This document shows, one piece after another, positions 53,557 to 55,160 of a stretch of DNA of 64,000 bases. The notes under the pieces were generated by a model. The model ran no database searches and was not told where the DNA came from. It saw only the letters and a list, made by a program, of their open reading frames with translations. Origin of the DNA: Verrucomicrobiales bacterium. Its GTDB lineage: Bacteria; Verrucomicrobiota; Verrucomicrobiia; Verrucomicrobiales; V1-33. Positions within the stretch are counted from its first letter, which is position 1. The number at the start of each line of letters is the position of its first letter. Made by a program: the position numbers and the translations under genes. The stretch lies in assembly GCA_028293125.1 (NCBI GenBank), contig JAQGPJ010000077.1, forward strand, positions 1-64,000, given 5' to 3'.

Positions 53557-54090
53557 CTAGCTCTTTGATTTGGTCTTGGTGGCTGTCGCAGTGGCCGTTT
53601 TGGTTCCCGTGGATTTGGAGGCGGAGGCGGCGGGTTTGGCGGCAGGTTTCGCCGCGGAGGTGGCGGTGGCCGCCGCGGTGGCGGACTTGGCTCCGTTGCT
53701 GCCATTGCTCACGGGGTCCGCAGCCGGTGGGGCGGCGGCGGCGGCGGCGGCTGCTTTGGCGGCGGCGGCGGCACGGGTGGCGGCCTTGACCACAGGCGGG
53801 CCGGCGGCGATGCCGCGCTTCATCACGGCGAAGAGGCGCTGCACCTCCAGTTTTTTCTGGGGCGGGATCTGGTTCCAGTGGGTGTCGGTGAGGGCACCCT
53901 CAATGGCGTAGGCGGCCACGAGGGAAACCGGGTGACCTGCGAGGAGCATGCGGCGGCAGACCTCGATGGCTCCAAGCTTGGCCATCTCGCTGCGGCTGCG
54001 CACACCGGCATCCACAAGCCAGAGGGCGGTTTTTTCTCCGAGGTTTTTAAGGGCGGCGAGTTCCTGAACGATGGGATCTGTTGCGGACAT
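53557..54090 (-). CDS. TfoX C-terminal-domain protein with histone-H1-like tail
   Basis: A 177-residue protein. Residues 8-88 match the TfoX C-terminal domain: LKNLGEKTALWLVDAGVRS, GAIEVCRRMLLAGHPVS and AIEGALTDTHWNQIPP. The N-terminal TfoX domain is absent. Residues 100-177 are almost only Ala, Lys, Thr, Ser and Pro (runs such as KAAAAAAAA and TKTATATATKTKSKS), like histone H1-type bacterial proteins that bind DNA non-specifically. The combination suggests a DNA- or RNA-binding role. TfoX in other bacteria regulates competence, but no such inference is safe here. Confidence 0.82.
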   Translation of the reverse strand: MSATDPIVQELAALKNLGEKTALWLVDAGVRSRSEMAKLGAIEVCRRMLLAGHPVSLVAAYAIEGALTDTHWNQIPPQKKLEVQRLFAVMKRGIAAGPPVVKAATRAAAAAKAAAAAAAAPPAADPVSNGSNGAKSATAAATATSAAKPAAKPAASASKSTGTKTATATATKTKSKS

Positions 54091-54295
54091 AAGAGTGGGG
54101 CTGGCCGGACTGCGGCCATTTGTCAGCTGTAGAAAAGCAGAATTTCGGTGGAATTTCAGCCACTATTTTTTGATATTCACGCTCTGGTGAAAAATTCGTT
54201 GCCTTATTGCGCCCGATGGATGCGAGGCCGCCACTCTGCAGCCACCGGGAAAATGGAAAGAGATGGCTGAAAATGCGCCATTTCTAAATTCAGGG

Positions 54296-54312
54296 CTGGC
54301 ACGCTTGGTGCT
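54296..54312 (+). promoter_or_regulatory. Sigma-54-like -24/-12 promoter
   Basis: CTGGCACG (54296-54303), four bases, then GTGCT (54308-54312). This matches the consensus YTGGCACG-N4-TTGCW with one mismatch (G for T), and the invariant GG and GC are separated by exactly 10 bases. Transcription is predicted to begin near 54323. No protein gene starts shortly downstream; the hairpin series at 54323-54452 does. Confidence 0.6.
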
Positions 54313-54322
54313 TAAATCAATG

Positions 54323-54452
54323 GCAGGCCGGGGTGCGAATCCTGGCCGCAGATTTGGCGGATCACGGAAGAGATTCCATCCGCAACAAGATCGGGGGTTG
54401 CTGCAAGAACGCTGTGCCCGGGCTGGTTTTCCAGTCCGGGCACAGCACTTTT
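54323..54452 (+). ncRNA. Candidate small RNA with three hairpins
   Basis: Starting at the predicted sigma-54 start, three stems follow. Hairpin A: GGCCGGGG (54326-54333) with TCCTGGCC (54340-54347), 8 bp, 2 G-U pairs, loop TGCGAA. Hairpin B: GCGGAT (54357-54362), bulge CAC, GGAA, a GNRA tetraloop GAGA (54370-54373), TTCC, ATCCGC (54378-54383). Hairpin C: a 16-bp stem at 54411-54446 with loop TTTT, followed by ACTTTTC. No known RNA family was recognised; a cobalamin riboswitch was looked for and not found. The nearest gene starts 160 bases later. This is inference from structure and promoter only. Confidence 0.5.
54411..54452 (+). terminator. Strong terminator-like hairpin ending the candidate small RNA
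   Basis: GCTGTGCCCGGGCTGG (54411-54426) pairs with CCAGTCCGGGCACAGC (54431-54446) over 16 bp with one G-U pair and a TTTT loop. CTTTTC follows. Neither neighbouring rightward gene lies upstream, so on this strand it needs an RNA starting within the intergenic region. The leftward side has no T-run. Confidence 0.7.
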
Positions 54453-54611
54453 CAGCACAGAGCGGCAAAAGGAAAGGGCTGGCGGAAAGGGCGGGGAGGG
54501 CAGCGGAGCCGGGATGAAGGGAGCCGCAGGGAAGCGGCAAGCGCAGTGCAGGGTTTCCTGAGGAATCCGGATGCACACCCGTCGGTTCCGGACGACGGAA
54601 GGGATTTTATT

Positions 54612-55160
54612 ATGCCCCCCTCCATCACCACCAAGCGCGGCGACGCCGGCCAGACCGATCTGTTGTTCGGCGGCCGGGTTGGAAAGTTCCATCCCCGCCT
54701 GCAGGCCGTGGGGGATCTGGATGAGCTGAACGCCGCCCTGGGCTTGGTGCGGGTGCATGTTCTGACACCGGAACTGCGCAAAACCGCCGCCCGGGCGCAG
54801 GAGGATCTGGTGGCGCTGATGGGATTGCTGGCGGCGGGACCGGAGCACGGGGCCCGCTACCTCAGCCAAGGATTTCCCACCATCGGTCCGGAGACCGTGG
54901 GGCGTCTCACAACGGAGGCCGCCGCCCTTGAGGCGCAGTTCCCTGACGGATTCGGAGGCTGGTCCACGCCCGGTGCCAAAGGCGGTGCGGGCGCGGCCTG
55001 GCTGGAGATGGCCCGCTGTGTCTGCCGCCGCGCCGAGCGCTCCACCGCCGTCTTGGCCCCGGAGGATTTGCCGGGCAATCCGCACATCCTGCCATGGCTG
55101 AACCGTCTGAGCGACCTGCTCTGGCTGGCGGCGCGGGTGGAGGAGCAGGTGATCATTTGA
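54612..55160 (+). CDS. PduO-type cob(I)alamin adenosyltransferase
   Basis: A 182-residue enzyme that transfers the adenosyl group of ATP to cob(I)alamin to form adenosylcobalamin. The N-terminal ATP-binding segment is TKRGDAGQTDLL, followed by VGDLDELNAALGLVRVH. The conserved CVCRRAERS and NRLSDLLWLAARVEEQ motifs match the family. No other cobalamin gene or B12-dependent enzyme is in the window, so it may serve salvage. The start is ATG 54612; the frame is open further upstream across the small-RNA region but without family character. A weak GGAAGG lies about 12 bases before the ATG. Confidence 0.93.
   Translation: MPPSITTKRGDAGQTDLLFGGRVGKFHPRLQAVGDLDELNAALGLVRVHVLTPELRKTAARAQEDLVALMGLLAAGPEHGARYLSQGFPTIGPETVGRLTTEAAALEAQFPDGFGGWSTPGAKGGAGAAWLEMARCVCRRAERSTAVLAPEDLPGNPHILPWLNRLSDLLWLAARVEEQVII

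Follow-up and report, generated by a model that had tools for sequence, protein, structure and literature searches.

A predicted sigma-54-dependent small RNA gene in Verrucomicrobiota, related to the 3' end of a glnK-amt operon

The locus between tfoX and pduO

The DNA analysed here (the window, a stretch of 64,000 nucleotides) comes from a freshwater-type Verrucomicrobiota bacterium and carries a predicted small RNA gene that is flanked by two genes, a divergent tfoX-like gene and a gene encoding a pduO-type cobalamin adenosyltransferase (Table 1). As stated in an earlier note, made from the letters of the sequence, the gap between the start of the tfoX-like gene (54090) and that of pduO (54612) amounts to 521 bases. 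The RNA is present in a single copy in the genome and is thus not a repeat.

Table 1. Features of the locus (positions in the window)
Feature	Position	Strand	Remarks
tfoX C-terminal-domain gene (tfoX-like), divergent left neighbour and syntenic anchor	53557..54090	-	Pfam TfoX_C 8.6e-15
AATTTCAGCCA block, upstream of the sigma-54 promoter	54152..54162	+	common to G000, G002, G003 and G004
Sigma-54 (-24/-12) promoter TGGCACGCTTGGTGCT	54297..54312	+	11/12 consensus, best in window, conserved in G002, G003 and G004
Predicted small RNA, ~130 nt	54323..54452	+	start placed from the -12 element, end from the hairpin and CTTTTC
Stem A	54323..54349	+	present in window, not conserved (fold versus alignment A3)
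Stem B, GCGGA...TCCGC with GAGA (GNRA) loop	54357..54383	+	both-sided changes in 2/6 pairs (four sequences only)
Linker GATCGGGGGTTGCTGCAAGAA, candidate base-pairing seed	54389..54409	+	almost unchanged across four congeners
Stem C, 16-bp hairpin CTGTGCCCGGG/CCCGGGCACAG, terminator-like	54411..54446	+	covariation
pduO-type cobalamin adenosyltransferase gene, downstream neighbour	54612..55160	+	Pfam Cob_adeno_trans 3.1e-36

The promoter has the layout T-GG-CACGCTTGGT-GC-T, in which 11 of the 12 informative positions are matched, in line with the GG-N10-GC element with one mismatch that had been described before, and no other sigma-54-like site within the 64 kb matches as well. The reversed sequence of the window, used as a control, also contained one 11/12 site, so that the match taken alone is at chance level, and one might view the locus as a chance cluster of a sigma-54-like match and G+C-rich hairpins in a G+C-rich gap. 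The comparative data refute this explanation, to which we give hardly any credence: promoter, seed and hairpin are conserved in several genomes (see below), with covariation in the stems. At the equivalent place we found TGGCATGGATGGTGCT in the congeners G002 and G004 and TGGCACGGATGTTGCT in G003 (against TGGCACGCTTGGTGCT in the genome of the window, G000), and by virtue of this conservation in three congeners the predicted promoter is taken to be real. The earlier note had proposed that the unit is switched on by an enhancer-binding protein and had suggested a check for rpoN. The genome indeed encodes RpoN (E = 2.4e-61) and nine strong Sigma54_activat (enhancer-binding) proteins, and the locus thus combines a conserved -24/-12 element with the sigma factor and the activators of a sigma-54-dependent unit.

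Upstream of the promoter, the four congeners share the AATTTCAGCCA block, followed by an A/T-rich stretch. The block was absent from the glnK upstream regions that were compared, and may serve as a site for an activator or belong to the tfoX promoter. A search for NtrC-type sites upstream of the promoter yielded no convincing dyad and nothing significant.

The predicted fold of positions 54323-54455 has an energy of -71.5 kcal/mol (z = -6.4 against 200 dinucleotide shuffles) and comprises the three consecutive stems that had been proposed, including the one capped by a GNRA tetraloop (stem B) and the 16-bp terminator-like stem C, which is followed by ACTTTTC and hence by the CTTTTC tail noted before. 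The conserved linker between stems B and C had been missed. Its predicted accessibility is moderate (mean unpaired 0.30-0.66).

The RNA was not recognised as a member of a known family in the earlier note, and this view held: Rfam gave no match at the gathering score, nothing plausible at E values up to 10 and nothing usable for the RNA of the window at a permissive threshold. Judged by these searches and its conservation, it is a conserved, predicted small RNA gene absent from Rfam. The position upstream of pduO and the presence of GGTGCGAATCC in stem A had raised the idea of a cobalamin riboswitch (RF00174), for which no match was obtained at the thresholds tried. The sole RF00174 copy found in the genome (53 bits; L002, G000:C73:10348-10485) lies upstream of a gene for an apparent secreted PEP-CTERM-type protein rather than of an obvious cobalamin gene.

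Conservation of the RNA among relatives

A DNA search of 142 relatives recovered the core of the RNA in the congeners G002 and G004 and in G008, G011 and G012 of a sister genus, and G003 was added by reading the region upstream of pduO. In the window's genus (G000, G002, G003 and G004) the order is the same throughout: tfoX on the opposite strand, the sigma-54 promoter, the RNA and then pduO; in a fifth congener, G001, a hairpin fragment was found at the contig end, beside pduO. The stretch from the promoter to stem B, which includes stem A, is unalignable and varies in length among the congeners. The alignment starts at stem B and comprises GCGG...CCGC, GATCGGGGGTTGCTGCAAGAA and CTGTGCCCGGG...CCCGGGCACAG, with GATCAGGGGTTGTTGCGAAAA as the linker in G003. 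A conserved promoter and a conserved downstream RNA with unalignable sequence in between support the free-standing, sigma-54-driven small RNA that was first proposed.

The strongest evidence for a conserved structure was found in stem C, for which 92% of the cells in an alignment of seven sequences from three genera are paired and six pairs are altered on both sides, a result equalled in none of 500 shuffles; several of these two-sided alterations are contributed by G006, the most distant sequence of the alignment. Stem B covaries as well. A genome lacking rpoN, or stems lacking compensatory changes, would have spoken against the first proposal; neither was encountered, with the exception of stem A, which lacks conservation. 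The conserved core, as judged from the alignment, is therefore not a set of three stems; it consists of the linker seed and stem C, preceded by stem B. One-base differences in length between the seed and the hairpin argue against a coding function, and a conserved seed followed by a 3' hairpin with compensatory changes is the arrangement expected of a trans-acting small RNA. The description of stem C as terminator-like stood in part: stem and U-tract are both there in the window (the tract also in G002 and G004) but the tract is absent from G003 and from G008, G011 and G012, so that termination is not a general property of the element.

With a covariance model (R1), nine genomes of the 387 of the order scored above 60 bits, all from one family, and a contig-end fragment was detected in a tenth (G001); in this set the RNA was not found outside its family. 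Matches below 33 bits look like chance, apart from the G001 fragment and the reverse-strand echoes of the palindrome, and the weak matches elsewhere in the order are generic hairpins, some of them within genes and none near glnK or amt. An exact-pattern scan of genome contigs returned six Verrucomicrobiota records, one of Deltaproteobacteria and one of Streptomyces, the latter two being judged chance since no matching hairpin follows, and when 388 genomes of the phylum were scanned for the pattern, the window alone matched. The exact-seed copies stem from few independent lineages. One of the contigs, CAMDJM010000009.1 (L068, the same contig as G004:C9), is titled Akkermansia muciniphila and groups with the window's genus, which looks like a misassignment.

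The association with glnK-amt

In four species of the sister genus, one of them with a diverged seed, the seed and the hairpin directly follow the amt stop codon. The core reads TTCGGGGGTTGCTGCAAAACGCTGTGCCCGGG in G008, G011 and G012 and begins, with the hairpin, approximately 25 bases past that codon. The order in these three genomes is tfoX on the opposite strand, a sigma-54 site (TGGCACGGTGGATGCT or TGGCACGGTGCATGCT), glnK, amt and the RNA. G005 has tfoX, glnK, amt and a hairpin with a diverged seed, and in G006, which belongs to a third genus and likewise has a weaker seed, glnK and amt are preceded by a sigma-54 site and followed by CGGGGTTGCT and a hairpin whose changes are compensated, tfoX not being a neighbour. 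On the left, the tfoX gene thus adjoins the RNA in G002, G003 and G004 and glnK-amt-RNA in G005, G008 and G012, and pduO follows the RNA in G002, G003 and G004 and, at a contig end, in G001.

In the window's genus glnK-amt is located elsewhere and lacks the RNA. In G000, G001, G003 and G004 it is preceded by its own sigma-54 site (a consensus site in the window's genome) and ends, where the contig extends far enough, in an unrelated hairpin. The transporters of G002 and G004 group with those of the sister genus in the amt tree, the G004 gene being at a different locus, which fits a relocation of glnK-amt that left the RNA behind; the events may also have run in the opposite order. The best reading of these data is that the RNA of the window and the 3'UTR of the sigma-54-controlled glnK-amt operon of the sister genus are related by descent, and a putative link of the RNA to nitrogen is well motivated by its location. 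The first reading could not see this kinship and was incomplete as to the conserved core, but its proposal of a stand-alone small RNA is supported.

Two alternatives have to be weighed here. The RNA could be the structured 5' leader of pduO, with the sigma-54 promoter driving that gene and stem C as a conditional terminator, perhaps responsive to cobalamin. We consider this improbable. In its favour, pduO follows on the same strand in four species and adjoins the hairpin fragment in a fifth, and stem C is terminator-like. In the sister genus, however, seed and hairpin are found 3' of amt and away from pduO; the interval from the hairpin to the start of pduO is variable in both length and sequence, and no cobalamin riboswitch was matched here in a genome that has one elsewhere. 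Slightly better placed, and still unlikely, is the explanation that the element acts in cis only, as a terminator or stability element of glnK-amt, of which the window holds a decaying remnant without a function in trans. This would agree with its position 3' of amt in the sister genus and with stem C being the best conserved structure. Promoter, seed and stem, however, have been kept in four species with no glnK-amt ahead of them, in a spacer that otherwise defies alignment, a terminator would not need the conserved linker, U-tracts are absent from several copies, and other glnK-amt operons end in unrelated hairpins.

We therefore favour, with reasonable though not high confidence, the reading that positions 54297-54452 are a stand-alone sigma-54-dependent small RNA gene, akin to the glnK-amt 3'UTR, linked to nitrogen and acting by base pairing in trans. 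It is, on comparative grounds, probably a regulatory RNA responsive to nitrogen that was turned into a gene of its own. More tentatively, glnK-amt may have left the locus and so no longer separate the RNA from the sigma-54 promoter on the tfoX side; the promoter would thereby have been fused to the 3'UTR RNA, and the two retained as a nitrogen-responsive small RNA gene in its own right, whose product possibly acts back on the relocated glnK-amt mRNA. This scenario is possible rather than likely.

Proposed function and comparison with known RNAs

In the proposed mechanism, the RpoN holoenzyme, activated by an enhancer-binding protein, would initiate at approximately 54323 (a position derived from that of the -12 element) and the transcript would stop after stem C. 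The activator is plausibly the same as that of glnK-amt and would fire under nitrogen shortage. As a homologue of the glnK-amt 3'UTR of the sister genus, the RNA would most likely accumulate in nitrogen limitation and act in trans through GGGGGUUGCUGCAA, the segment that would pair with at least one mRNA. Stem C may guard the 3' end, and terminate transcription where a U-tract is present, and stem B the 5' side. Hfq gave no Pfam match in G000, G003, G004 and G008, three of which are less than 95% complete, which leaves its absence unproven; given this result, an Hfq-independent action is expected.

The closest parallel in layout is GlnZ, a small RNA released from the 3'UTR of the glnA mRNA in Enterobacteriaceae, for the processing of which Hfq and RNase E matter (PMC9731577). 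GlnZ is an RpoN-dependent RNA that derives from the tail of a nitrogen-assimilation mRNA and has a conserved seed and a terminator hairpin; the amt copies of the sister genus are laid out alike, a resemblance for which no homology is claimed. The parent gene of GlnZ is glnA, whereas that of the sister-genus RNA is amt and the RNA of the window's genus has a promoter of its own; a place within the 3'UTR of a nitrogen gene under sigma-54 control is seen in G008, G011 and G012 but not in the window, whose copy stands alone. GlnZ is also Hfq-dependent in its processing, and as the search of the four genomes yielded no Hfq, the RNA is not classed as GlnZ. NrsZ of Pseudomonas aeruginosa, a nitrogen-regulated small RNA of at least 226 nt located beside ntrC (PMC9308961), resembles the RNA of the window as a stand-alone intergenic RNA behind an RpoN-dependent promoter, but its ACAGGCAG motif is missing from the latter and no homology is evident. 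The cobalamin riboswitch RF00174 has only the position upstream of a cobalamin gene in common with it; it gave no match, and the same RNA is found beside amt in relatives.

A search of a literature collection retrieved no paper on an amt 3'UTR-derived small RNA or on Verrucomicrobia small RNAs like this one, and the catalogued small RNA families number 8 in the PVC group versus 345 in Proteobacteria (table in PMC9029176). A conserved, putatively sigma-54-driven RNA tied to ammonium uptake thus offers a concrete entry to RNA regulation in the PVC group. The location in the 3'UTR of glnK-amt in one genus and behind its own promoter in the next may have caught a route from an mRNA tail to a small RNA gene.

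Perfect 10-nt complements of the seed lay mostly inside genes where the surroundings were read, and none of them was located in a leader common to several genomes. The glnK leader of the window's genome contains CUGCGGCAACCC, which could pair with GGGUUGCUGCA over eleven consecutive positions, one of them G-U. In a ranking of the predicted glnK-leader duplexes against 45 background leaders, those of G000 and G003 came at or near the first place, that of G004 9th and that of G008 24th. These ranks are only suggestive, and the glnK leader as a target is a lead rather than a finding.

Two further observations were made. The glnK leaders of the window's genus (L073:678-773, in G000:C19, and L095, L096 and L079) have in common a G+C-rich segment similar to CTGCGGCaCCCtGGGACGGGGgaGGCCGC, situated after the sigma-54 promoter and ahead of the start of glnK, which looks like a conserved structured mRNA leader; the leader in L073 had no Rfam match. 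The sequence GCAGCAACCC was five to six times more common than its reversed form, a control that is not dinucleotide-matched, in G008 (95 versus 15) and G012 (61 versus 12). In the loci examined, most of this excess falls within coding sequence, and it thus probably reflects codon usage.
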